Virus record (IMG/VR): IMGVR_UViG_3300033553_000176
Coordinates: 1-40,768 of that record
Strand: one strand, 5' to 3'
Length of the DNA stretch: 40,768 nucleotides
Source: a virus
Part shown: positions 10,267-40,768 of the stretch, in pieces
Position numbering within the stretch: the first letter of the stretch is position 1
Layout of the letters: every line of letters begins with the position of its first letter
Position numbers and translations under genes: made by a program
Notes under the pieces: generated by a model
Told to the model about the DNA's origin: nothing
Databases searched by the model: none
Seen by the model: the letters and a program-made list of their open reading frames with translations, nothing else

Positions 10267-10871
10267 TGCAGACGGTCCTCATGAGTCCGTTCCGGCAGGC
10301 GGCGGTCGTGTCCACCCCTGGCTCTGTGGATATTCGGGCAGCGGCGATCAACGACGCATTGACGGTCATTGCGCCCTCATCCTGGTACCAAGCAGACCCA
10401 CTGTATTGGACAGGATCAAATGGCATTCAGTTCCTCCGCTTCACGAACGTGGCTATCCCGCAAGGCGCAACCATCACCAGCGCCACGCTAACGGTGTACA
10501 CGGCAGCGAACATGGCTGGCGCTGTAGCGAATGATGAGGTCAGGGTCTACGGGGAGGACGTAGACAACGCCACCCAAATCTCGAGCGCATCAGGAGCCGT
10601 GACGCGCTTCACGAACAATAAGACGACCGCGAGTGTCGATTGGTACCCGTGGGAAGCCAACGGGCCATTGACCGGCATTGACCAGCCCGTCATCAGCCCC
10701 ACCATCGCCGCGATTGTGCAGGGGATCGTGAACCGGACCGGTTGGGTGAGCGGGAATGCCCTGCAATTCATGGTGGATGACCTAGAGACGCAGAACAACA
10801 GTCTCGCCATGCAGTCGGGCTACACGGGCGGCGCAGGCACCTACCCCCGGTTGGAGGTGACGTACTCATGA
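10266..10871 (+). CDS. DNRLRE/CBM-like fibre protein
   Basis: A 201-residue protein starting at the ATG overlapping the previous TGA. It has ITSATLTVYTAANMAG, VRVYGEDVDNA, and PVISPTIAAIVQGIVNRTGW followed by LQFMVDD and YPRLEVTYS, the layout of the DNRLRE-type beta-sandwich used as a carbohydrate-binding or adhesive domain. Longer frames to 10164 would overlap the upstream gene and lack an RBS. A role in binding host surface sugar is inferred. Confidence 0.62.
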   Translation: MQTVLMSPFRQAAVVSTPGSVDIRAAAINDALTVIAPSSWYQADPLYWTGSNGIQFLRFTNVAIPQGATITSATLTVYTAANMAGAVANDEVRVYGEDVDNATQISSASGAVTRFTNNKTTASVDWYPWEANGPLTGIDQPVISPTIAAIVQGIVNRTGWVSGNALQFMVDDLETQNNSLAMQSGYTGGAGTYPRLEVTYS

Positions 10872-12355
10872 TGTGGACGCAAACCGCTTCTGGGTTGCAC
10901 ACCCCCCGCGTGTTGGGGGCGCGCGGCATTGTCGCAGCCCTCGCGCAACGCAGGCGCGGCGGCGCAGCGCCCATCTCCACAAGCGGTGGGGGGGACGGCA
11001 GTACCCCACCGCCCGGCGGGGGTGGCGACCCGCAGGTGTACACCTTCACGGAGGACACCACGACGGACTTCCCGAACCCGGAGCGTGGGTGGTACACGGA
11101 AAACGTGTATTGGGGCGGCAGTCCCGGCGGGGATTCGTTCGCAGGCACGCCACTCGACGGGTTCGTCACTGGAAACAAACCGACGCTTGAGCTGTACTAC
11201 GTGAACCTCCGCAACTACCGCTTCGGCAGTCTGTCAAGCGACTTCCTGACGGATCACGAGGCCGTATTCCAGGCTGCCCGGTCGGCGGGCGTGAAGTTCG
11301 CGCTTCGCTACGCGTACAACCGCAACATGATTACCGACGCGAACGGCGACCCGATCGATAGTGAGTGCGACACGAGCCTCACGCAAATGCAGGACCACAT
11401 TAGCGACCTCGCGACCCTCTGGGCGTCCTACAAGGACGTCATCGCCGTCCTTCAGGGCGGGTTTGCGGGTTGGTGGGGGGAGCAGTGGGGCGGCGCGATC
11501 AACACCACCACAGAGCGTGACGGGCTGATTGACTCCCTCCTGACGAACACGCCAAGCACCACGATGGTGCAATGGCGCGACCCGTTCTGGCTTCGCGACC
11601 GCTACCCCACCCCCATCACCAGTGGCGACCGGTTCGGAACGGGCAACCAAGCAAGGGCCGCGCACTACAACGATTGCGTTGGGAGTGGCTACGACTGGCA
11701 AACGTACTTCACGAGCGACGGGTCTACCGGAACGCAAAAGTTGGAGTATGCGGAGGATATCGCGCCGTTCGTCGTGATGGGCGGCGAGTCCTGCAACGGG
11801 AATGGCCTCGGAGATTTCAACAACGGGTCGTACATGCAAGGCCGATTCGAAGCTTTGTCGTGGGACTACCTCAACAGCGAGTACTGGATGGACATGTACA
11901 CCAAGTGGGATGGGGAAGGGTACCTCGCGTCCATCAGTCGCCGTCTCGGGTACCGCCTGTTCCTCTCCCAAGCCACCCTCCCCACCAGCGCAGTGGCAAG
12001 CGCCACGGTCAGTGTCACCCTCCGCTTCATTAACCGCGGTTTTGGGAAGGTGTACAACCCGCGCCCCATCGACCTGATCCTCGTCGGTTCGGGTGGCCCG
12101 TTCACGGTTAGCTTGACGGAGGACGCTCGCCAATCCCTGCCGCTTGGTGGTCAGGTGCGGGAGGACACGTGGAACGTCACGATGCCTGCCGGGCTTGTGG
12201 CGGGCGCGACGTACGCCCTTCACCTTCGCATGCCGGACCCCAGCGCGAACCTTGAGGGTGACGATCGGTACACGATTCGCCTTGCGAACAGCGGCATGTG
12301 GGACGGCGCGACGGGGCGGCACGACTTGGGTGCCGCGGTGAGCGTCCCGGCATGA
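10868..12355 (+). CDS. Tail fibre with DUF4874/DUF4832-like glycosidase domain
   Basis: A 495-residue protein. Residues 1-35 form a basic N-terminal segment, 36-55 a Gly/Pro/Ser linker (STSGGGDGSTPPPGGGG), then FPNPERGWY (about 70), the opening of the DUF4874 family, with LELYYVNLRNYR, VKFALRYAYN, DVIAVLQGGFAGWWGEQWG and the downstream DUF4832-type beta domain. These domain pairs are TIM-barrel plus beta-sandwich proteins related to glycoside hydrolases. As part of a fibre cluster it probably cuts or binds host surface polysaccharide. Substrate cannot be told. Confidence 0.75.
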   Translation: MMWTQTASGLHTPRVLGARGIVAALAQRRRGGAAPISTSGGGDGSTPPPGGGGDPQVYTFTEDTTTDFPNPERGWYTENVYWGGSPGGDSFAGTPLDGFVTGNKPTLELYYVNLRNYRFGSLSSDFLTDHEAVFQAARSAGVKFALRYAYNRNMITDANGDPIDSECDTSLTQMQDHISDLATLWASYKDVIAVLQGGFAGWWGEQWGGAINTTTERDGLIDSLLTNTPSTTMVQWRDPFWLRDRYPTPITSGDRFGTGNQARAAHYNDCVGSGYDWQTYFTSDGSTGTQKLEYAEDIAPFVVMGGESCNGNGLGDFNNGSYMQGRFEALSWDYLNSEYWMDMYTKWDGEGYLASISRRLGYRLFLSQATLPTSAVASATVSVTLRFINRGFGKVYNPRPIDLILVGSGGPFTVSLTEDARQSLPLGGQVREDTWNVTMPAGLVAGATYALHLRMPDPSANLEGDDRYTIRLANSGMWDGATGRHDLGAAVSVPA

Positions 12356-13847: not shown

Positions 13848-14440
13848 TTGAATTCGGGTACAAATTCGGGTTTGGACAATCCGGGCTAGTTACGCCTGGC
13901 TTCGTTCTACGTGACACCTTCACGGATGCTGACGGCACGAACCTCACCGCGCACACGATGAACGTGGGGCCCGGTTGGACCGTGGCGGACGGCACGTTCG
14001 AAATCAACGCAAACAATCAAGTGCAAGCCACGGTCGTTAGCGGTAGCCAGGCGAAAGCCACCGCCATTTCGGACGCGGGCATTGCGAACATCAGTCTCGC
14101 CTGCAACCTTTATACGGGAGACGCGAATGGTGTGGGCCTGAATCTGCGGTACAAGGACACCGGCAGTTTTTGGAACGCTGCGCTTGCGACCAGCGCCAAT
14201 GAACTCCGAATCTTTCAAATCGAGTCGGGCCTCCCTACGGAACGCGCAGCAGTCGCGCTCACCCTCGCGCCCTCTACGTGGTACACCCTCACCTTCACAG
14301 CCGACGGGAACGCGCTGACCGCCACTGTAGGCGCGTCCTCTTGCAACTACACGAGCACCTATAACAACGACCAAACCAGTCACGGCATTCGCTCTACGAG
14401 TACAAGCCAAGCATTTGACAATTTCGAGGCTAAGGCATGA
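13844..14440 (+). CDS. LamG/concanavalin-like carbohydrate-binding fibre protein
   Basis: A 198-residue protein with GTG start overlapping the previous stop. From residue 22 it reads as a single concanavalin-like jelly roll: LRDTFTDADGTNLTAHTMNVGPGW, NISLACNLYTGDANGVGLNLRYKD in pieces, STWYTLTFTADGNALTATVG, HGIRSTSTSQAFDNFEAKA. Such domains bind sugars. It overlaps the GH43-like gene at ATGA, so the two are probably made together and may form a binding plus cutting unit. Confidence 0.7.
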   Translation: MIEFGYKFGFGQSGLVTPGFVLRDTFTDADGTNLTAHTMNVGPGWTVADGTFEINANNQVQATVVSGSQAKATAISDAGIANISLACNLYTGDANGVGLNLRYKDTGSFWNAALATSANELRIFQIESGLPTERAAVALTLAPSTWYTLTFTADGNALTATVGASSCNYTSTYNNDQTSHGIRSTSTSQAFDNFEAKA

Positions 14441-15789
14441 GTTACGGATTCCGAAACAGCGAAACCCGAGGGCAAGGCAGGTACTTTGACGGGTGGCGCT
14501 GGGTTCGAGCGCCGGTCACCCTATGGGCACCAGGTAGCGGCTGGGAAAGCACGTCCGTTGAGTGGCCGCAAATCACGCAGCACATTGGGAAACTGTACTC
14601 GTACTACCACGCTAACGGAATCGCTTACCAGATTGGGCTTGCCACCGCCGATCACTTGCTTGGCCCCTGGACGAAAGACGCAAGCAACCCCCTGCTTACG
14701 CTTGGCTCAAGCGGCGCGTGGGACGACGCGCATATTGCACATCCGACCTTGATTCAGAAACCGAACGGGGATTACGTCCTCGTGTACTTCGGTGATGACG
14801 GCACCAACATCCAAATGGGTGTCGCTACCGCTTCCGACCCGGCTGGCCCCTGGACGAAGAGTGTAAGCAACCCCGTCATCACTGCCCCTAGCGGTTCGAA
14901 CGGTGGGTGGGGCGGCCCCGTGTTCTATTACCAGGACCGCTTTTACGTGTTCTACCCGGAGGAGCAGGGCAGCGTTGGGACATTCGACGCGCCTACCGGA
15001 TGGGCGTTGTACTCCGCAAGCGATCCTATCGGGCCGTGGAGCAAGCTAGGAGACGTAACCGTCAAGGGGGTCGGTGTGAACGAGGCGCTAGTACACACCA
15101 TCCGCAGCGTCACGCCAATCGGAAGCGAATTCTATGCGTTTGGGACGGTACGGCAACTGTTTGGTTCAAGCCGGAAACAGCACATCGCAGCGTTCGCCAG
15201 CGATGATCTGCTCACGTGGCGGGCAGTACCAGGCACGCCCCTCATCTTCAGCCTGCCGGATGCAGTGGCTAGCGAAGCTAATTACGCTCGCCTGAAGCCC
15301 GATGACATCAATTACGAGCATGTGTTCCCTGTGCAAGATGAGGCTGGCTTGTGGTTGGTAGCGAGCGGCCGGGGCAATCGGAACATGGGGGCGTGGTTGG
15401 GTGTGCCTCCGGGGCGCGAGTTCAGCATGAGGATTCGGGAGTACCTGAACGATGCAAGCCTTGCGACGGGCGCTACAACCAGCGCGGATGATACGCGGCC
15501 CCTTCGGCTTCAGGATGCGCATAGTGTATCCGTGACGTGCCAAGCGACCGTGAATGCGTCAGCGACAAACGGGTTGAAGTTGGGTTTGTATCCGAGTGGG
15601 GACGGCATGGAGTTCGATACGGTCGCGCACAGCGAGAAGACGTTGGCAGTACCTGCTTCGGGTACGGCGTTGCAAGGTACATGGAATTTAGATGTACGGG
15701 GTTTCGCGTTTGCGCAGGTGCGTGTTGAAAATCTCGATGCGACGTACGCGGCAACTGACGTGATTCTGGACGTAACCGTGAAGGGCTAG
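14437..15789 (+). CDS. GH43-like beta-propeller, putative polysaccharide-degrading fibre protein
   Basis: A 450-residue protein whose residues 20-340 hold repeated propeller blades with the LATADHLLGPWTKD, VATASDPAGPWTK and YSASDPIGPWSKLGDV motifs, and blades opening with WPQITQHIGKLYSYY, HPTLIQKPNGDYVLVYF, GGPVFYYQDRFYVFYPE. This is typical of the five-bladed GH43/GH117 group. Residues 340-450 form a second beta domain. It likely degrades or holds host glycan. Catalytic acids cannot be fixed by eye. It ends the fibre region before a strong terminator. Confidence 0.75.
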   Translation: MSYGFRNSETRGQGRYFDGWRWVRAPVTLWAPGSGWESTSVEWPQITQHIGKLYSYYHANGIAYQIGLATADHLLGPWTKDASNPLLTLGSSGAWDDAHIAHPTLIQKPNGDYVLVYFGDDGTNIQMGVATASDPAGPWTKSVSNPVITAPSGSNGGWGGPVFYYQDRFYVFYPEEQGSVGTFDAPTGWALYSASDPIGPWSKLGDVTVKGVGVNEALVHTIRSVTPIGSEFYAFGTVRQLFGSSRKQHIAAFASDDLLTWRAVPGTPLIFSLPDAVASEANYARLKPDDINYEHVFPVQDEAGLWLVASGRGNRNMGAWLGVPPGREFSMRIREYLNDASLATGATTSADDTRPLRLQDAHSVSVTCQATVNASATNGLKLGLYPSGDGMEFDTVAHSEKTLAVPASGTALQGTWNLDVRGFAFAQVRVENLDATYAATDVILDVTVKG

Positions 15790-22317: not shown

Positions 22318-22690
22318 CGCCGGCCTCGACCCGCTCGGTCTGCTCGACAGCCAGCAGGCCCTCGTGGATCACTCCCGCCAGGCCGTCGAGACTCATGGTC
22401 GAGAGGGCATCGTCCATTTCAGCTGTGATGTGCGGCGCCAGCAGACGACGAATCTCGTCGATCGGTTCAGGATCGAACGGTGGCGTGTAGTCCGTGTTCA
22501 GCGACCACTCGGCGTCCTCATCGAAGTCCATGCCGGCCTTCGACAGTTGCGCGACTGGCATGGACTCCTTGTCGAGCAAGTCCACCGGCGTGCAGATCGC
22601 CAGGCCGAGGGAATGGAGGTACGACTGGAGGAGCTCGGCGTGGCGGAGGGCTTCGCGGATCTTCGGTCCGGCGTCCTTGGTGATGATCAT
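22310..22690 (-). CDS. Hypothetical protein downstream of MBL-fold gene
   Basis: A 126-residue acidic protein; ATG at 22688-22690 overlaps the upstream stop. Helical N-terminus (KIREALRHAELLQSYLHSLGLAIC) and acidic middle (DFDEDAEWSLNTDY). Unrecognised. Coupled to the recombination genes, so expressed early. Confidence 0.58.
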   Translation of the reverse strand: MIITKDAGPKIREALRHAELLQSYLHSLGLAICTPVDLLDKESMPVAQLSKAGMDFDEDAEWSLNTDYTPPFDPEPIDEIRRLLAPHITAEMDDALSTMSLDGLAGVIHEGLLAVEQTERVEAGDA

Positions 22691-23403
22691 GCTGGCGCTC
22701 CTTGGCGGTCGGCGACGTAGACGGGCTTGCCGGTGGCCCTGGCCACCAGGTCCCGGAACTGCTCGGCGTGGCTGTTTCCGTCGCTCAGGTGAAGCAGGTG
22801 AATCTCCTCGACCTTCGACAGGTCGTTTGCCTGCAGCAGCTCCACAGCCCGCTCGATCGACATGTGTGACCCAAGGACGCGATGCATGTGCGCCCTCGGG
22901 ATGCTGCCGTTCTCGACGTTCTCGCGGAGGATCCGCTCGCTGTAGTTCGTTTCGAGCAGGATCCTCGTAAGGCCAGCGAAGCGGTAGGGCGAGAAGCCGC
23001 TGTCGGTGAGGTACAGCACGCGATCGGGGCCGCGTGCGATCAGGAAGCCCAACGGCTCGGCGGCGTCGTGCCGCACGTCGAACGGCATGACCTTCCAGTT
23101 GCCGACGACGAACGGCACGCGAGCCTCGACGCTCTTCGCGCGGTGCGAGTCGACGCCAAGCTGTTGCCATGTGGGCTCGCTGGCGTAGCAGTCCACGCCG
23201 GCACGCATGACCTGCTTCACGCTCCGCGCGTGGTCTCCGTGCTCGTGAGAAAGGAGGCACCCGTCGAGCTGAGAGACGCGGTGCTTCAAGCCGCGCTGCA
23301 GATCCGCGTACCTGATGCCGGCCTCCAACAGGAGGGTGCTGCCGCCCTCGTGAAGGGCGACAGCATTCCCAGCGCTCGAACTGGCGAGCACCTGAACGTC
23401 CAT
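22687..23403 (-). CDS. MBL-fold metallohydrolase (YycJ/WalJ-like)
   Basis: A 238-residue protein with SSSAGNA near the start, LSHEHGDHA (H53, H55, D57, H58) as the core metal site, LTDSGFS around residue 131, and further conserved His (HRVLGSHMS). This is the metallo-beta-lactamase fold of the YycJ group of nucleases/phosphodiesterases. It is coupled to RecT on one side. In phages a MBL gene often sits beside RecT; it may supply nuclease activity. Substrate inferred, not seen. Confidence 0.85.
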   Translation of the reverse strand: MDVQVLASSSAGNAVALHEGGSTLLLEAGIRYADLQRGLKHRVSQLDGCLLSHEHGDHARSVKQVMRAGVDCYASEPTWQQLGVDSHRAKSVEARVPFVVGNWKVMPFDVRHDAAEPLGFLIARGPDRVLYLTDSGFSPYRFAGLTRILLETNYSERILRENVENGSIPRAHMHRVLGSHMSIERAVELLQANDLSKVEEIHLLHLSDGNSHAEQFRDLVARATGKPVYVADRQGAPA

Positions 23404-24290
23404 CAGAACGGCGCCTCCGTCAGAGTGCCCTGCTCGACCCGCGGCTCGCTGGACGTCTCGACGTCGATCGTGCGGTCATCCTCGACCGCCTCGTCGAGTG
23501 TCTCTGGGATCTCGAGGACGTCACCGTTCGCGTTTTCGTCCGCGTCGGCCTCGATCGCGGCCTCCACGGACTCGGAGATCTCGCGGTTGAACTCCTGCAG
23601 GAACAGGTGGTCATCGTTCGAGCTGTTGATGTACCGCTTCAACGCGCGGTTGAGGACGGTCCGCTTCACCATCTCCGACTGGAACTGCGTGTGGGTGGAC
23701 TTCTCGCTGTTCGGGTTCATCTTCGACTTGGACCAGGCGGCTTGGATTTGGTCCCACGTCATGAGCTCCGTGTAGTCGCGACCGTCGTTGAACATGACGA
23801 CGGCGTAGGCGGCGCGGACGTTGCCGGTGTCGATCGTGTCGAGGGACTGGCGGTGGGTGACGACCTTCTTGGTGCCGCGGTCGATCTCGTACTCGAACGT
23901 GTCGCCCTCGTACACGATCTCCGCGACCGCGTCCTGCACATCCGCCATGCGCTTCGCGACGGCCATCGTCCCGAAGTACGAGCGCTGGAAGACGAGGCTC
24001 TTGCCGTAGCAAATGAAGTATCCCTGACGTTTGCCGGGGTCCAACGCCTGCACGACCATCGAGTAGAGGGCCTGCACGACGCTGTTGCGGCTGCACACCT
24101 CGAGCGCCGGCTTGCGGTCCTTGTCCTGGACCTCCTGCAGCGTCAACCAGGCGGCCTGCAGCGCGTTGGCTGCCGAGTAGTTGCGGGGCAGGACGAGCTG
24201 GCCGTTCTCGACCAGCTCCCCGATGCGCTTCTCGACGACGGTGACGGTCTGATCCTTCAGGACTGCGAGCTCGTTCTTCTGCGTAGTCAT
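23403..24290 (-). CDS. recT: RecT family single-strand annealing protein
   Basis: A 295-residue protein starting MTTQKNELAVLKD. Characteristic RecT pattern: RNYSAANALQAAWLTLQEVQ, CSRNSVVQALYSMVVQALDPGKRQGYFI in parts, LVFQRSYFGTMAVAKR, and THTQFQSEMVKRTVLNRALKRYINSSND in parts. RecT anneals complementary single strands at DNA ends. The C-terminal 60 residues are acidic. No RecE is seen. The gene is coupled to the Rad50-like gene upstream. Confidence 0.9.
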   Translation of the reverse strand: MTTQKNELAVLKDQTVTVVEKRIGELVENGQLVLPRNYSAANALQAAWLTLQEVQDKDRKPALEVCSRNSVVQALYSMVVQALDPGKRQGYFICYGKSLVFQRSYFGTMAVAKRMADVQDAVAEIVYEGDTFEYEIDRGTKKVVTHRQSLDTIDTGNVRAAYAVVMFNDGRDYTELMTWDQIQAAWSKSKMNPNSEKSTHTQFQSEMVKRTVLNRALKRYINSSNDDHLFLQEFNREISESVEAAIEADADENANGDVLEIPETLDEAVEDDRTIDVETSSEPRVEQGTLTEAPF

Positions 24291-26254
24291 GCTGCTACCT
24301 CCTGATGCGTTTCGACTCGGAGCGTGGGGTCGGTGGCGGACACGACGAGGCGGATCATCTGGCCCTTCGTCGCCAGCAGGTCGACGACGGACTCGGCGTT
24401 GTCGACGAAGACGGGGGGCGTGAAGTCGTAGTGGTCCTGCAGCGTGGCGATGATGTCCAGCCCGGCGTTCACCCTGGCGCCGCCGTTCAGACTGTCGTAC
24501 GGGACGCCGTTGACCAGCGTCTGGCACGTCTCGGTCAGGCCGCCGTTGACCTGCTCGTCGAACAGGCGGAAGCGTGCCTGCTCGAAGTGCACGTTGATCT
24601 TGGCTTCGAGCATGCGGACCTTCGCCCGCGTGAACTCGTCGAGGAGGTACAGGTGCCGCTCGAGCGTTTCGATCTCCTCAGCAAGGCGGCGCTCCTCGTC
24701 TGACAGCTCCGTAATCCGGGCGTCAGCCTTCTGGACCTGCTCGATGGCAGCCAGTTGCGCCTGCGCCTGCGTGATCTCGGCGTCGATCGCCTCGATCTTC
24801 GCGTCGAGCTCGGTTGTGGCGTCGCGCGTGCCGGCCTTCAGCTCGACGATCTCGGCCTGCAGCTGCTCGGCCTGGGCGGCGAGCTTCTGATGCTCGGGAT
24901 CCATGCTCGGATCCGGAATGGCGGACTGGAGCTCGTCGGCGCGGGCGCGGAGGGCGTGCGCCTTCTCGATCAGCTTCTCTTCCTCGTCCTCGGCCACCTC
25001 GAGCTGCTCGCTCAGGCGGGCCTCGTCGGCCTCGAGCTTCTCGACGTTCGCGCGCAGCTGCTTGCCTTCCTCCTGGATCGCCTGCAGCTCGCTGGCCTTC
25101 TTGCCGTTGAACTCCTGGAAGGCCTTCGCGTGCGCGGCCTCCACCTGGTCGGCCGGCAGCGACTGGCCACACGCGGGGCACGACTCGGGCTCGTGATGAT
25201 CCAGTGTCCGCGCGTTGACGCGGTTCCAGTCCGCCCGCAGGGTCTCGATGCGCGCCTCGACACGACCGATCTGGGCTGCGGCAGCCAGGCGGTCCCGCTC
25301 GATACCCTTCGCCTCCGCCTCCTTGTTCGCCAGGGCGGACTCGGAGTCACGCGCTTCGCGCTGCGCACGGTCGGCAGCCTCCTCACCTTTCGCCTTCACG
25401 CGGCGTTCGACCTGCCGGCGTTCCTCCTCGACCTCACGAAGCTTCGCCTGCTTCTCGGCGACACCCGTCGCGGCGCTGGCTTCGACTCGTCGCTCCGCCA
25501 GGTCCGTGTACGTGGCCCGGAGGTCCTTGACGCGCGCCTCGGACTCGCCCCGATCGGCGCCATCGATCGGCGCCGGCTTGCCGCGCTCCACCTCGTCGAT
25601 CCGCACCGGGATGCGTTCCAGCTCCTCGTTCGCCTTCTTCCGCCGGCCAGCCGCAACCTTCCGGTACTCGTCGATCGAGTGCTTCCCCAGGATCCCCGGC
25701 AGGTCGGAAAGTTCGTCGTGCTTCGCGATGACGTCCTCGTCGCCCACATCGCCGCACACCTCGAGCAGGATCTGGCGACGATCCTTCCAGTGCAGCACCT
25801 GATTGAAGTAGGTGGGATCGGTCAACAGGCGGAACGTGCCTTCATCCGCGATCTCAGCGATGCGCTCGTCGTACTCCTTCTTCTGGACCGGCACGTCATC
25901 GATGAAGTGCTCCGTCGTGTGGCCCGTGAACACTTCCTTCGCTGCTCCGCGCGGTTTCGTCCACTTCTCCTTGTAGACCTTCCGCAGGGTCGTGACCTCA
26001 CCGTCGAGGTCGAGGTCCGCTTCAACACTGTGCTCCAAGCCGTGCTTCGCCTCGCCGTCGGGTCCGAGGGTCTTGATCTCGAAGTTCGCCTGGTTGTGAC
26101 TGTCCTTCCCGAACAGCAGCCACATGAACCCGTCGGCCAAGGTGGTCTTGCCGGCCGCGTTCGAGCCGTAGATGTCGACGTTCGCGCCACCCGGCTCGAG
26201 ATCGAACGACTGGACACCCTTGAAGTTCCGGAGGCTGATCCGGTTCAGTCTCAT
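24287..26254 (-). CDS. Rad50/SbcC-like ATPase with zinc hook
   Basis: A 655-residue protein. Walker A GSNAAGKTT at residues 30-38, coiled coil from about 190 to 560, a CPACG zinc-hook-like CxxC near residue 358, and a C-terminal ATPase half with SLNGGARVNAGL in place of the usual signature and VFVDNAES as Walker B. This is the SMC/Rad50 layout but shorter than SbcC. Rad50-like ATPases usually drive an Mre11-type nuclease; none is seen here. It heads a RecT/MBL operon. Confidence 0.85.
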   Translation of the reverse strand: MRLNRISLRNFKGVQSFDLEPGGANVDIYGSNAAGKTTLADGFMWLLFGKDSHNQANFEIKTLGPDGEAKHGLEHSVEADLDLDGEVTTLRKVYKEKWTKPRGAAKEVFTGHTTEHFIDDVPVQKKEYDERIAEIADEGTFRLLTDPTYFNQVLHWKDRRQILLEVCGDVGDEDVIAKHDELSDLPGILGKHSIDEYRKVAAGRRKKANEELERIPVRIDEVERGKPAPIDGADRGESEARVKDLRATYTDLAERRVEASAATGVAEKQAKLREVEEERRQVERRVKAKGEEAADRAQREARDSESALANKEAEAKGIERDRLAAAAQIGRVEARIETLRADWNRVNARTLDHHEPESCPACGQSLPADQVEAAHAKAFQEFNGKKASELQAIQEEGKQLRANVEKLEADEARLSEQLEVAEDEEEKLIEKAHALRARADELQSAIPDPSMDPEHQKLAAQAEQLQAEIVELKAGTRDATTELDAKIEAIDAEITQAQAQLAAIEQVQKADARITELSDEERRLAEEIETLERHLYLLDEFTRAKVRMLEAKINVHFEQARFRLFDEQVNGGLTETCQTLVNGVPYDSLNGGARVNAGLDIIATLQDHYDFTPPVFVDNAESVVDLLATKGQMIRLVVSATDPTLRVETHQEVAA

Positions 26255-26553
26255 GACGTCACCTCCCACGTCGAGCGGCGATCCGGATCCGGCAGCCACC
26301 CCAACTCGCGGCGTTGGGCGGCAGCCATCTGCCGGTGAAAGTCGCACTCGGCAACCTCCGCCGCCCGGTTCTCCTCAACAGCGCGCTCCAAGTCCCGGAA
26401 GTACCCGGTGTCGCTGGGCGCCTCCACGACCTGCCACGCGGCGTCGAGGACACGCTCGCGGGAGTCGTCGAAGCGCTTCTTGATGGCTGGCCAGGCAGCA
26501 TCGAGCTCCTGGACAGACGGGACGGATTGAGGGGTGGGGATGCTATTCTGCAT
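26251..26553 (-). CDS. First gene of leftward operon, hypothetical helical protein
   Basis: A 100-residue protein with a good ribosome site (AAGGAG 8-9 bases before ATG). Helical (SVQELDAAWPAIKKRFDDSRERVLDAAW) and charged. It is the promoter-proximal gene of the leftward operon and couples to the Rad50-like ATPase. No motif recognised. Confidence 0.6.
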   Translation of the reverse strand: MQNSIPTPQSVPSVQELDAAWPAIKKRFDDSRERVLDAAWQVVEAPSDTGYFRDLERAVEENRAAEVAECDFHRQMAAAQRRELGWLPDPDRRSTWEVTS

Positions 26554-26612
26554 GCGTCCAACTCCTTCCAAGTTGGTGTGCGTGCCCCGAGCTCCTCTCG
26601 GTGGCACGCCTT

Positions 26613-26641
26613 AATCTAGCACAATGGTTGCGCTGTTGCAA
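26613..26641 (-). promoter_or_regulatory. Leftward early promoter
   Basis: On the minus strand: -35 TTGCAA (26641-26636), a 17-base spacer, and -10 TAGATT (26618-26613) with an extended TGC before it. It points into the leftward recombination operon. Confidence 0.55.
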
Positions 26642-26643
26642 CC
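26626..26643. promoter_or_regulatory. Operator candidate: nested inverted repeats
   Basis: GGTTGC (26626-26631) and GCAACC (26638-26643) form an inner dyad, enclosed by CTAGCAC (26616-26622) and GTGCTAG (26648-26654). The dyad overlaps -35 boxes of both divergent promoters, so one regulator bound here could repress both. Confidence 0.55.
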
Positions 26644-26657
26644 GCGCGTGCTAGAGT
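26628..26657 (+). promoter_or_regulatory. Rightward early promoter
   Basis: TTGCGC (26628-26633), 18-base spacer, TAGAGT (26652-26657) with extended TGC before it. It mirrors the leftward promoter across the dyad and points to the HTH gene at 26680. Confidence 0.5.
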
Positions 26658-26679
26658 CACCACAAGGAAGGAGGGGCGA

Positions 26680-26856
26680 GTGAATCAATACATGACCGTC
26701 ACCCAAGCCGCGAAAGAACTGAGAATCAGCGGACAAGCCATTCGACGCGCGCTCGCCAGAGGCACCATGAAAGGCGAGAAAATTGGAGCCGTCTGGATGG
26801 TAGATCGCGAGGCCGTGCGACAGTGGCCGAAACGCAGGCGCGAGGAGGCCGCATGA
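26680..26856 (+). CDS. Small excisionase/MerR-type HTH DNA-binding protein
   Basis: A 58-residue protein; GTG at 26680 follows GGAGGGG. It is nearly all one winged HTH unit (MTVTQAAKELRISGQAIRRAL, then KIGAVWMVDREAVRQWPK), the HTH_17/excisionase type. As the first rightward gene beside a divergent promoter with a dyad, it is likely the regulator of that switch or an excisionase-like protein. No integrase is in this window, so a purely regulatory role is preferred. Confidence 0.75.
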   Translation: MNQYMTVTQAAKELRISGQAIRRALARGTMKGEKIGAVWMVDREAVRQWPKRRREEAA

Positions 26857-26862
26857 AAAGAA

Positions 26863-26880
26863 CGCCCCCGTAGGGGCGCT
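26863..26880 (+). terminator. Hairpin after the HTH gene
   Basis: CGCCCC (26863-26868) pairs with GGGGCG (26873-26878) without a T tract. It may attenuate transcription after the regulator gene. Confidence 0.4.
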
Positions 26881-26944
26881 GCGAAGGAAGGAACCCGGCG
26901 AAGGAATCCCCCCAGGCACCATTATTCTAGCAGAAAGGCTGAGC

Positions 26945-27133: not shown

Positions 27134-27240
27134 CAAGCGTCGCCATCGCCGCCGTTGGCTTCGCGGCAATCATCACCATCGGATGCGTACTGGCCGAAGC
27201 GTACGACCGGCTCGCCCGCAAGTGGGGCTGGCCGCGATGA
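27130..27240 (+). CDS. Single-pass membrane micro-protein
   Basis: A 36-residue frame in ATGA overlap on both sides: TSVAIAAVGFAAIITIGCVL is one transmembrane helix followed by a basic tail. A small membrane protein in an early operon; possible exclusion or signalling role, inferred only from topology. Confidence 0.5.
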   Translation: MTSVAIAAVGFAAIITIGCVLAEAYDRLARKWGWPR

Positions 27241-27918: not shown

Positions 27919-28124
27919 AGCCCGACGAGCTCACGCGCACCGTTGCCGAGCTACGCGAATTCGCGTTTGGCCTACGCGTCCAACGGAACGACCTCATTAT
28001 CAAACACTCGACTGTGCCCGCCAGCGTCAGCAAGAGCCTACGGGACGCCGCGCAAGCCGTCGACGACGCCGCAAGCGACCTGCTCAACGCGTACGGGCAG
28101 CCCATGCCGGACGGTGTGTTGTGA
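27915..28124 (+). CDS. Small helical protein, rightward early operon
   Basis: A 69-residue helical protein (ELTRTVAELREFAFGLRVQR, SLRDAAQAVDDAASDLLNAY). It ends in overlap with the PP-loop gene's GTG. Unrecognised. Confidence 0.52.
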   Translation: MKPDELTRTVAELREFAFGLRVQRNDLIIKHSTVPASVSKSLRDAAQAVDDAASDLLNAYGQPMPDGVL

Positions 28125-28897
28125 AAGCCATCGTCATGTTCAGCGGCGGGAAAGGCTCCTGGGCAGCAGGACGACGCGCCATCAAGAAGTACGGCGCGGA
28201 CAATACGACACTCCTGTTCGCAGACACCCTCGTTGAAGATGTAGACACGTACCGATTCCTCCACGAAGCCGCTGAGAATCTCGGAGCGCCACTCATTCAA
28301 GTCAGCGACGGCCGGACACCCTTCCAGGTGTTCAAGGACGACAGGTTCCTCGGCAACGCACGCCTCGCGAATTGCAGCAAGTTCCTTAAGCAAAAGCCGT
28401 GCCGCACATGGCTGGAAGCCAACGCCCCCGAAGACGCCGTGGTGGTTGTCGGGATTGACTGGACGGAAGAACACCGACTCCCCGCGATTCAGGCGGGATG
28501 GAAACCCTGGCGCGTATGGGCACCCATGACGGACGGGCCGTACCTCGATAGCCAGCAGGTGTTCGACATGCTGCGCGCCGAAGGACTCAGGCCCCCCAGG
28601 GATTACGAGCTTGGACTGCCCCACGCGAACTGCGGAGCGCAGGGCTGCGTCCGTGGAGGCCAGGCGTACTGGCAAGCCCTCCTACGGGGCCGCAGGGACG
28701 TGTATCTCCAGACGGAACGCGAAGAGCAAGAGTTGCGCGACTACCTGGAGAAAGACGTTGCCATGCTCAAAGACCGCACGAACGGCCAGTCCACACCGCT
28801 CACCCTGCGCGAGTTTCGCGAACGCGTTGAAGCGCAACCCGACCTGTTCGACCGAGACGAGTGGGGCGGCTGCGGCTGCTTCACGGAGGCACCATGA
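28121..28897 (+). CDS. PAPS-reductase-like PP-loop enzyme with Cys motifs
   Basis: A 258-residue protein with GTG start. It opens with the PP-loop SGGKGS (8-13), then LLFADTLVEDVDTYRFL and ANCSKFLKQKPCRTWL, a later CGAQGCVRGGQAYW and a CGC near the C-terminus. PP-loop enzymes activate substrates as adenylates; the Cys clusters could hold an Fe-S site, as in 2-thiolation or sulfur-insertion enzymes. True PAPS reductases have an ECG motif, absent here. Substrate unknown; DNA or nucleotide modification is possible given the nearby methyltransferases. Confidence 0.75.
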   Translation: MKAIVMFSGGKGSWAAGRRAIKKYGADNTTLLFADTLVEDVDTYRFLHEAAENLGAPLIQVSDGRTPFQVFKDDRFLGNARLANCSKFLKQKPCRTWLEANAPEDAVVVVGIDWTEEHRLPAIQAGWKPWRVWAPMTDGPYLDSQQVFDMLRAEGLRPPRDYELGLPHANCGAQGCVRGGQAYWQALLRGRRDVYLQTEREEQELRDYLEKDVAMLKDRTNGQSTPLTLREFRERVEAQPDLFDRDEWGGCGCFTEAP

Positions 28898-38295: not shown

Positions 38296-39281
38296 ACCCC
38301 GAACGACTGTCTCGCGATGCCATCAGGGTCGTGGACCGCCTCGAAGCCAAACAGGTCCAACGCCTTAAGCAACTTGTTGACGAGATTGCGCGGGATGCTA
38401 GGGACCGGCTCGGCGCGCTTGACCTGACGGACGCCAGCGTGGCTAGAGCAATTCGCGAGGTGCAGATCCGTAGGTTGTTGCAAGGTAGCGCCGCCGCCCG
38501 CCGCCTGTTGGACATGGGCACGTCTGGCCCCCTGGCGGACGCTATGCGGGCCGACATCATGACCGCCTACCGCGAGGGCTTGAGGACCGCTGGAAACGCT
38601 GTGGCGGCCTCCACAACCGCGGCAGGGGCTACCGTGGGCGCTGCCGCTGCGTTCGGAGCCAGGATTGACCTGGAACTCATTCAAGCCATTACCGAATCCA
38701 CACTCACGACACTGAATCGCGTTGGCCGTGACGGCCTGGAACGACTTGAGCGAACCATCGTCCGTGTCGCCGCTAGGGGCGCAGGCCCACGCGCAGGCGC
38801 ACGCGCGGTCATGGAAGCGACAGGCGTCACGCGGGTGGAGGCGGAACGCATCACTCGCACGGTTCTGCAACGCGCGAACAGTGAAGCCCGAAAGCGTGGG
38901 TATGAAGCATCCGGCGTTGAGTACGTCCGTTATGACGCCACCAACGATTCGAGGACGTGCCCGTATTGCGCAGCGCGTCACGGCATGGTGTACCGGATTG
39001 ATCGCGCGCCCAGCCTCCCTTTGCACCCGAGTTGCAGGTGCGTGACCTTGCCGTTCCGGCCCGACGCCAGTGCTGAGGATCGGGCGGACGAGTACTACGA
39101 ACGCACCCGCAGGGACTTGAGGGAGCGTGAGGTCATTACGACCCGCGCGACAGGCGGACGCAGGGAATCCAGTAGGCGTGAGGCGGAGACTACGACCGCG
39201 ACAGCAGCGGCACCCTTCGAACGCACCGACGGTCGAGAACCGCCACGGCCCGTATGGGCTCCAGGGAGGGGATGGCTTTGA
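38292..39281 (+). CDS. MuF-like minor head morphogenesis protein (SPP1 gp7-like)
   Basis: A 329-residue protein. The C-terminal half has the MuF domain: ERITRTVLQRANSEARKRGYEA, VRYDATNDSRTCPYCAARHGMVY and LPLHPSCRCVTLPF, with four conserved Cys/His. N-terminal helices precede it. Such proteins enter the procapsid with the portal and may be ejected. The last 60 residues are charged. Confidence 0.88.
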   Translation: MNPERLSRDAIRVVDRLEAKQVQRLKQLVDEIARDARDRLGALDLTDASVARAIREVQIRRLLQGSAAARRLLDMGTSGPLADAMRADIMTAYREGLRTAGNAVAASTTAAGATVGAAAAFGARIDLELIQAITESTLTTLNRVGRDGLERLERTIVRVAARGAGPRAGARAVMEATGVTRVEAERITRTVLQRANSEARKRGYEASGVEYVRYDATNDSRTCPYCAARHGMVYRIDRAPSLPLHPSCRCVTLPFRPDASAEDRADEYYERTRRDLREREVITTRATGGRRESSRREAETTTATAAAPFERTDGREPPRPVWAPGRGWL

Positions 39282-39643
39282 GCAGGGCAGTGGTACGCAT
39301 CCTGGGCGTGAACGCGTTGTCCCGCTCCCTCCACCAGCGCGGAGCGAACATGCGAAGCGCCGCGCGAAAGGTCGTCAACGAGACAGCCGAACGCATCTAC
39401 AACGAGAGTCAACGCCGCGTCCCGGTCGATACGGGCAACCTCAAGAGTTCCGCGCGCCTCGAGCCCGCCCAGGGCGACGAGACGACAGCGCAAGTCGGGT
39501 ATGGCGGGACGGCCGCAGGGTACGCCCTCGTGATTCACGAGACGCACCGATCCGGCAGTAAGTACCTGGAGGAACCCGCGAGGGAAGAGGTCGCCAGGTT
39601 CGTGAAAGACGTTCGCGAGGCGGTGAGGAATGCGACGCGCTAA
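39278..39643 (+). CDS. HK97 gp10-like phage morphogenesis protein
   Basis: A 121-residue protein from TTG at 39278, which overlaps the MuF stop and has GGAGG at 39265-39269 in good spacing; an ATG at 39272 is too close to that ribosome site. The sequence VNETAERIYNESQRRVPVDTGNLKSSARLE and YALVIHETHRSGSKYLEEPARE matches the HK97 gp10 / tail-completion family. Here it is upstream of the scaffold, unlike the usual place between connector and tail tube. Confidence 0.75.
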   Translation: MSRAVVRILGVNALSRSLHQRGANMRSAARKVVNETAERIYNESQRRVPVDTGNLKSSARLEPAQGDETTAQVGYGGTAAGYALVIHETHRSGSKYLEEPAREEVARFVKDVREAVRNATR

Positions 39644-39740
39644 GGCCACCATCAAAGGCGAGTGGCGGCTGTACCGCGACCTGCCCGCCTTCTACGTGTT
39701 CCTGTTCGCCCTCTACGCCTTGTGGTCAGGAGGCGAGTAG
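39630..39740 (+). CDS. Membrane micro-protein in head operon
   Basis: A 36-residue frame overlapping the gp10-like gene end by 14 bases. LPAFYVFLFALYALWSGG is hydrophobic and could span a membrane, after a basic N-terminus. Start context is weak (GAGGA one base before). Low to moderate. Confidence 0.42.
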   Translation: MRRAKATIKGEWRLYRDLPAFYVFLFALYALWSGGE

Positions 39741-39749
39741 AGTGGCACC

Positions 39750-39926
39750 GTGGACATTAGCGTGGAGGTCCAGGGATTCTACTGGACCGCCGACAATGAA
39801 CTCAGGGAGTGCATCGTCGCCAGGATCGGGAGTGACCTGATCGTGCTGGACGCGGAAACGCTGGACGTGGTCCAAGTCCGCCCAAGGGACGTCATGGTTG
39901 AGAAGCCCACGACTCCGTCAAGTTGA
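39750..39926 (+). CDS. Small acidic beta protein
   Basis: A 58-residue frame with GTG start: VDISVEVQGFYWTADNELREC, LIVLDAETLDVVQVRPRDVM. The AGGAGG at 39728-39733 lies rather far. Sequence quality argues for coding over the alternative GTG at 39742. It ends inside the reverse-strand gene by 35 bases. Confidence 0.55.
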   Translation: MDISVEVQGFYWTADNELRECIVARIGSDLIVLDAETLDVVQVRPRDVMVEKPTTPSS

Positions 39927-40263
39927 CGATCATGACGCCATACTCCACCGACGCAACCACCAAATACCACACGTCGTCCGTCGCGAAGCCCGTATAGCGG
40001 AACCCTTCGGCTTCCTCGCCACTCACTTCGAGCGGGTCCATGAGTTCTGCGAGCGTGTCGAACCACTCAATGGTGCCTAGACCGAGGTCCTGCGCGTTTG
40101 CGCGGATTCGCGCTTCAGCGTTTGGGAGTGAACCGCCGAGCTCGAAGCAGTAGACGGTGGGGTCCGCGTCAGGGCAGTCCGCTTCGGGCGTCCCCGCGAC
40201 CTTCGCGGGTAAGTCCTGGCCGTAGGCAAGGCTGAACGTCAACAGAATCGCAAGCCATTTCAT
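39892..40263 (-). CDS. Secreted small protein on reverse strand (moron-like)
   Basis: A 123-residue protein with signal peptide MKWLAILLTFSLAYGQ. Mature part has two Cys (CPDADPTVYC), acidic throughout (LPNAEARIRANAQDLGLGTIEW, LEVSGEEAEG). It is the only reverse-strand gene in the late region, next to the scaffold. A GC hairpin overlaps its start (CCCCCA at 40265 region with TGGGGG). It may act in the cell envelope, for example in superinfection exclusion. No matching gene precedes the other scaffold copy. Confidence 0.65.
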   Translation of the reverse strand: MKWLAILLTFSLAYGQDLPAKVAGTPEADCPDADPTVYCFELGGSLPNAEARIRANAQDLGLGTIEWFDTLAELMDPLEVSGEEAEGFRYTGFATDDVWYLVVASVEYGVMIVNLTESWASQP

Positions 40264-40336
40264 GCCCCCACCCTAGCGGATGGGGGCGTTCTCGTGGTCC
40301 GACCCGGTGAGTGACCCTAAAAGCAACCAGAGACGC

Positions 40337-40768
40337 ATGAGTGAAGAAGCCAAAAACCCCGACGCCATCGAAGAACCCACGCCCCCGGAAGCGGAACAGA
40401 CCGGGACTACGCCCACCGACGCGGCAAAGTCGGCAACTACGCAGCCCGCCGCGGACAAGAGCGAGCAGTACGACCCCGACACTGTCGAGAAGATCGTCAA
40501 GAAGCGACTCGATCGGGAACGCAAGAAGTGGGAAGCCGAAATGGAGGAAGCCCGCAAGCAAGCCGAAATGAGTGAAGCGGAGAAAGCGCAGGCCCGCACG
40601 AAGGAACTCGAAGCAGAACTCGAGAAGGAACGCGCTGCACGTACCGCGTCGGATCGCCGCGCCGAACTGGCCGGCAAGGTGCGCGACCCCCGGGCCGCCA
40701 TGAAACTCATTGAAGACGAGCACGTCAACGAGGACGGCAGTGTGAACGTCGAAGCGTTCCTTGAGGCG
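40337..40768 (+). CDS. Second scaffold protein copy, cut by window end
   Basis: A frame of 144 visible residues running to the window edge. The N-terminus (MSEEAKNPDAIEEPTPPEAEQTG) differs from the first copy, but from base 40471 onward 298 bases match 426-723 with five differences. The coiled coil and RDPRAAMKLI region are the same. Either a gene duplication or the overlap of a circular genome closed by a variant strain. Confidence 0.8.
   Translation, partial: MSEEAKNPDAIEEPTPPEAEQTGTTPTDAAKSATTQPAADKSEQYDPDTVEKIVKKRLDRERKKWEAEMEEARKQAEMSEAEKAQARTKELEAELEKERAARTASDRRAELAGKVRDPRAAMKLIEDEHVNEDGSVNVEAFLEA

Follow-up and report, generated by a model that had tools for sequence, protein, structure and literature searches.

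How could two divergent early operons of a tailed phage be driven from a gap of only 126 bp, and what does the symmetry of the DNA in this gap mean for their control? The window analyzed here is a complete IMG/VR record of 40,768 bases classified as viral. The gap separates a leftward operon, starting with orf100 (start at 26553), from a rightward operon, starting with the gene of a 58-aa HTH protein (start at 26680). The preliminary description of this locus had suggested that a symmetric divergent promoter with a nested dyad, combined with feedback by the HTH protein, forms a very small bistable switch.

Two early promoters were predicted in the gap. The leftward promoter P_L1 (26613–26641, minus strand) comprises the -35 box TTGCAA (26641–26636), a 17-bp spacer, and the extended -10 element TGC-TAGATT (26621–26613). 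The rightward promoter P_R (26628–26657, plus strand) comprises the -35 box TTGCGC (26628–26633), an 18-bp spacer, and the extended -10 element TGC-TAGAGT (26649–26657). Read directly, the extended -10 sequences are GTGCTAGATT (minus strand, 26622–26613) and GTGCTAGAGT (plus strand, 26648–26657). Transcription would start near 26606 from P_L1 and near 26664 from P_R. The promoters are placed back to back with the -35 boxes 2 bp apart, and both boxes are located within an inner dyad, GGTTGC-6-GCAACC (26626–26643), which is a candidate operator. Its arms GGTTGC (26626–26631) and GCAACC (26638–26643) flank the center GCTGTT, and a perfect copy occurs only once in the window. An outer dyad (26615–26655) is formed by the two extended -10 elements; its arms TCTAGCAC (26615–26622) and GTGCTAGA (26648–26655) match at 8 of 8 positions. 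The outer arms CTAGCAC/GTGCTAG described earlier are therefore present, but the actual arms are 8 bases long. Likewise, the promoters do oppose each other around GGTTGC-6-GCAACC, but the proposed mirror image is not exact: the centers of the two dyads lie at 26634.5 and 26635, offset by half a base pair, since the inner and outer arms are separated by 3 bases on one side and 4 on the other (spacers of 17 and 18 bp).

By our own count, the -35 and -10 hexamers agree with the E. coli sigma-70 rule, which may not be that of the host, at 8 of 12 positions for the leftward promoter and 7 of 12 for the rightward one. For this reason, neither was listed by a strict scan demanding at least 9 of 12 matches to this rule. 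Promoter-like sites of the window were also ranked with an ad hoc matrix rewarding TG, its weights set by hand, in which P_L1 came first and P_R fourth. Both promoters have correct spacers and good Shine-Dalgarno sites and are located at positions where promoters are needed.

The nested dyad of the gap contains 14 paired bases, against 12 in the best dinucleotide shuffle of the 126-bp sequence, and none of 5,000 shuffles matched it; the symmetry, which can be read directly from the sequence, is real. When whole windows were shuffled, 27 of 60 contained an equally good nested dyad, and therefore its rarity on the genome scale was dropped as an argument. When two extended -10 promoters were implanted in random sequence, the probability of obtaining 14 or more pairs was 0.0003–0.005, depending on the model. 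Most of the 14 pairs follow from the presence of two divergent extended -10 promoters, and the excess of symmetry over the promoter consensus is moderate. This excess is contributed mainly by GG before TTGC, by C as the fourth base of the -35 box, and by G and C around TG.

A repeat search revealed a third copy of the element that was absent from the preliminary description: the sequence 26611–26633 is directly repeated at 26922–26944 with 18 of 23 bases identical, and an equally good match was found in 2 of 300 shuffled genomes. This promoter-like site (26924–26944, minus strand) has the extended -10 sequence TGCTAGAAT at 26932–26924, CAGCC upstream, and a weak -35 box or none. It is antisense, lies between the HTH gene and orf62 about 300 bp from the promoter pair, and ranks fifth in the window according to the ad hoc TG-rewarding matrix. 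The sequence TGCTAGANT occurs in the window at three sites only (P_L1, P_R, and the third copy), all within 26613–26932; three occurrences anywhere were seen in 2 of 300 shuffles, and clustered occurrences in none of 300. All three sites share the pattern CA(A/G)CC-N3/4-(G/C)TGCTAGANT, which was formulated after the sites had been seen and was found in no shuffle. The shared pattern is suggestive only, since GG of the third copy falls in the Shine-Dalgarno-like AAAGG ahead of orf62, an overlap that could account for some of the similarity. The third copy stands alone, without a dyad, and contains half of the motif only; the unit thus looks like a promoter element that happens to form a pair in the center. 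On the minus strand, the segment 26855–26932 combines this leftward extended -10 site with a GC-rich hairpin and CTTTTC within 50 bp.

The explanation that we consider the most likely, and fairly probable, is that the gap represents an early phage control region with a compact, mutually exclusive pair of early promoters sharing one core. Sequence, geometry, statistics, and gene content are observed, and from them we infer transcription, polymerase exclusion, and the action of any regulator. In the early control region of this tailed-phage contig, two extended -10 promoters would lie back to back, and the core would be bound by one RNA polymerase at a time because of the 2-bp distance between the -35 boxes. 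The promoters would fire the recombination genes leftward and the regulator and replication genes rightward. The visible symmetry would mainly reflect the promoter-like element with the above pattern, present once per direction. Beyond the promoter consensus, the -35 boxes carry GG..CC flanks, which perhaps constitute a small shared operator; this operator, if bound, would turn both directions off together. A coordinate operator over the promoter pair is therefore possible. Exclusion of one polymerase by another is possible, but in the case of bidirectional promoters of E. coli the basal competition was too weak to be relevant (PMC12825309).

The gene content of the flanking operons is of the recombination type on the left, while the rightward operon encodes the HTH protein, replication functions, and methylases. 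The first leftward gene, orf100 (26251–26553, minus strand, 100 aa), had no match in PHROG, Pfam, or NCBIfam. It is followed on the same strand by genes for an SbcC/Rad50-like AAA ATPase (24287–26266; tblastn matches to phage SbcC-like proteins, best 42%), RecT (23403–24527; PF03837, 1.9e-36), and an MBL-fold hydrolase (22687–23403; Lactamase_B_2, 3e-12). No recognized regulator was found among these four products in the PHROG, Pfam, and NCBIfam searches. The predicted leader of the leftward transcript (26557–26607, minus strand) could form two strong hairpins, one at its 5' end (26607–26582) and one (26576–26558) carrying the Shine-Dalgarno sequence in the loop. Its folding energy is -29 kcal/mol versus -16.4 in shuffles (z = -4.5), and none of the 200 shuffles was equally stable. 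An Rfam search gave no match. A role of these hairpins in mRNA stability or translation control is possible.

Several other readings were considered; they overlap with each other and with the promoter-pair explanation, and the degrees of confidence attached to them need not sum to one. The inner dyad may, as a tentative alternative, genuinely function as the operator of a dimeric repressor of phage or host origin, and the dimer lying over both -35 boxes would repress both early operons. The earlier proposal that a single dimer at the center would span both -35 boxes agrees with the geometry, both boxes being inside the inner dyad. Consistent with such an operator, the two 6-base arms pair perfectly, GG and C are not part of the promoter consensus, the conditional probability is 0.0003–0.005, and a perfect copy occurs only once in the window; a palindromic operator is located in the P_R spacer beside the divergent promoter of mycobacteriophage BPs (PMC4557955). 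However, no CI-type or other immunity repressor was found among the proteins searched, in a record that may be incomplete; there is no second perfect copy in the window; and the third promoter-like site contains half of the motif only. The absence of a classic CI/Cro pair had already been pointed out, and none was recognizable among the proteins searched. With an operator that spans both -35 boxes, transcription to the left and to the right would be repressed at the same time, giving coordinate control rather than a toggle.

A comparably uncertain reading is that both promoters are autoregulated by the 58-aa HTH protein, which would bind cooperatively, head to tail, in the manner of the excisionase-type proteins Apl (phage 186) or Cox (P2); this would be compatible with the promoter pair. 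The gene (26680–26856, plus strand) has a GTG start behind AAGGAAGGAGG and is the first ORF behind P_R. That the first rightward product is a small HTH protein, as originally noted, was borne out by profile searches: this HTH_17/excisionase-family protein scored 35.2 bits against TIGR01764 (excisionase family; cut-off 28.8) and 32.1 against PF12728 (cut-off 27), and matched PHROG 7506 (recombination directionality factor) with an E-value of 7e-7. A single-sequence structural model (pLDDT 91.5) contains one small winged HTH and a C-terminal helix, with no dimerization domain. A Foldseek comparison of the model with PDB gave Pukovnik Xis as the best hit, followed by RacA and BldC (E 0.012–0.04, TM about 0.71–0.75); a PDB sequence search with the protein returned nothing meaningful, and these three proteins were absent from its results. 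Judging by the model, the protein is a minimal excisionase/BldC-type winged HTH, similar in predicted fold and size to BldC, Pukovnik Xis, and RdfS (PMC5859096, PMC11963761). Relatives were found neither in phages nor in viral contigs, and plasmids yielded weak matches (best 38%). A 125-aa wHTH protein encoded at 27240 had a poor predicted structure (pLDDT 44) and was not used.

Besides the HMM matches and the modeled Xis/BldC fold, the gene position makes such autoregulation plausible, since apl and cox are also the first genes of their own early operons (PMC7498355), and the Xis protein of Pf4 likewise controls a divergent promoter region (PMC7379572). However, the DNA of the gap does not show the arrangement of sites usual for these proteins. 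Apl (PMC7498355), with sites 10–11 bp apart, and BldC (PMC5859096) both bind direct repeats head to tail rather than dyads, the BldC sites being the 9-bp direct repeats AATTNNNNC. A search for tandem repeats within 26590–26690 at spacings of 6–24 gave a best ungapped 9-mer match of 6 of 9, the same as in shuffles, and inspection by eye found no AATT, for comparison with BldC sites, in 26554–26679. In addition, the promoters of the Apl system face each other, in contrast to the back-to-back pair of this gap, and no integrase, the cognate partner that a true excisionase would have in the same element, was found in PHROG and Pfam searches of the larger ORFs of this contig, which is linear and may be incomplete.

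It is rather doubtful, although compatible with the promoter-pair explanation, that the third leftward promoter-like site (26932–26924) acts like lambda P_RE or directs a short antisense RNA, so as to modulate the HTH gene or to prime leftward expression of the operon starting with orf100. Its TGCTAGAAT sequence, orientation, and place between the first and second rightward ORFs are in line with this, as is the GC-rich hairpin followed by CTTTTC just downstream (26861–26880, minus strand), a possible terminator at which a short antisense RNA could end. However, the site has no recognizable -35 box, such hairpin sites number 15 in the region versus 15.4 in shuffles, and the RNA fold has a z-score of only -1.15. 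We regard as very improbable a repressor-less decision module in which a monomeric BldC/Xis-type winged HTH protein would act on the symmetric back-to-back promoter core together with the detached third half-copy, and the two-way choice would be supplied by mutual exclusion of polymerases. Simple negative autoregulation yields no bistability. The minimal bistable two-way switch proposed in the preliminary description is the least credible reading: although mutual exclusion can occur between back-to-back promoters whose cores overlap, and the HTH gene adjoins the pair, a toggle would have no opposing arm because the leftward product is not a recognized regulator, a dimer bound at the center would silence both sides, the HTH model lacks a dimerization domain, and basal competition is too weak at E. 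coli bidirectional promoters (PMC12825309), so that self-contained bistability is unsupported.

Comparison with other genomes gave no counterpart of the region. Megablast of the right half of the window against 50,697 phage records revealed no near match, and relatives of the promoter gap were found neither in phages nor in viral contigs or genomes. Searches with the SbcC-like ATPase, capsid, RecT, portal-position protein, and PAPS-like protein identified relatives sharing gene cassettes, none of them with this promoter gap; the sequence of the best capsid relative, L041 (74%), stops before the control region. The cassette of leftward genes, together with upstream genes in a single orientation, occurs in Bacillota phages, e.g., Aeribacillus phage AP45. 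The exact full dyad was absent from viral contigs. The half motif TCTAGCAC-N2..5-GGTTGC had at least 120 matches there, which were taken as chance occurrences since none among the matches listed had the second GCAACC arm or was located beside control-region genes.

Some features of the genome outside the control region were also observed. The tail-to-lysis region encodes, on the plus strand, a protein with DUF4874/DUF4832 and another that matches part of glycosyl hydrolase family 43 (10868–12355 and 14437–15789); these proteins, unexpected among tail genes, are perhaps host-surface enzymes. The PAPS-reductase-like protein (28121–28897, plus strand) shares about 52% identity with its counterparts in large Mycobacterium phages (e.g., Optimus), and the capsid is closest to those of Enterococcus and Terrisporobacter phages; to judge from these affinities to different phage groups, the genome is mosaic. 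At the window ends (39254–40768 and 1–916), the neck gene extends to 39643 and the capsid gene begins at 916; in L041 these genes have the same order and are 0.9 kb apart. The contig may thus be a circularly permuted, near-complete genome; no end repeat was detected.

If the promoter-pair explanation is right, this region is a compact case of two early phage operons expressed from one shared promoter core with no recognizable CI/Cro pair. The promoter pair alone overturns no view of phage switches, but the symmetric core together with the lone third copy makes it possible to ask whether the symmetry constitutes an operator or simply follows from the pairing of promoters. In the PRM/PR region of lambda, which is controlled by CI and Cro and has an array of three operators, the first gene to the right encodes an HTH regulator, and a leftward promoter lies beyond this gene. 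PRM and PR are back to back (PMC7498355), and the present region shares with lambda this arrangement, a regulator-like HTH gene in the first rightward position, and a leftward promoter-like site farther on. However, two opposing repressor genes flanking shared operators, as in the lambda type, were not recognized here: neither CI nor a three-operator array was found, and the leftward operon carries recombination genes. The phage 186 pR-pL/Apl and P2 Pe/Pc/Cox systems (PMC7498355) also have a small excisionase-type HTH gene first in the early operon and two opposed promoters beside it. Those promoters face each other and are accompanied by seven direct-repeat Apl sites, and an immunity repressor is encoded on the other side, whereas here the promoters are back to back with a dyad and no direct repeats, and neither repressor nor integrase was found in the searched ORFs. 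The 33-34 region of mycobacteriophage BPs (Prep/PR, PMC4557955) resembles the present one in its divergent promoters, short gap, and palindromic element between the -35 and -10 boxes. In BPs, the repressor is encoded on the left and the 12-bp palindrome is repeated across the genome, while in the present region the first leftward gene does not correspond to a known repressor and the inner dyad is found in a single copy. E. coli bidirectional promoters (Warman/Grainger, PMC12825309) have one shared -10 element and starts 10–23 bp apart, as opposed to two -10 elements and predicted starts about 58 bp apart here; what the two have in common is pseudo-symmetric DNA on which polymerase would bind in two exclusive orientations.
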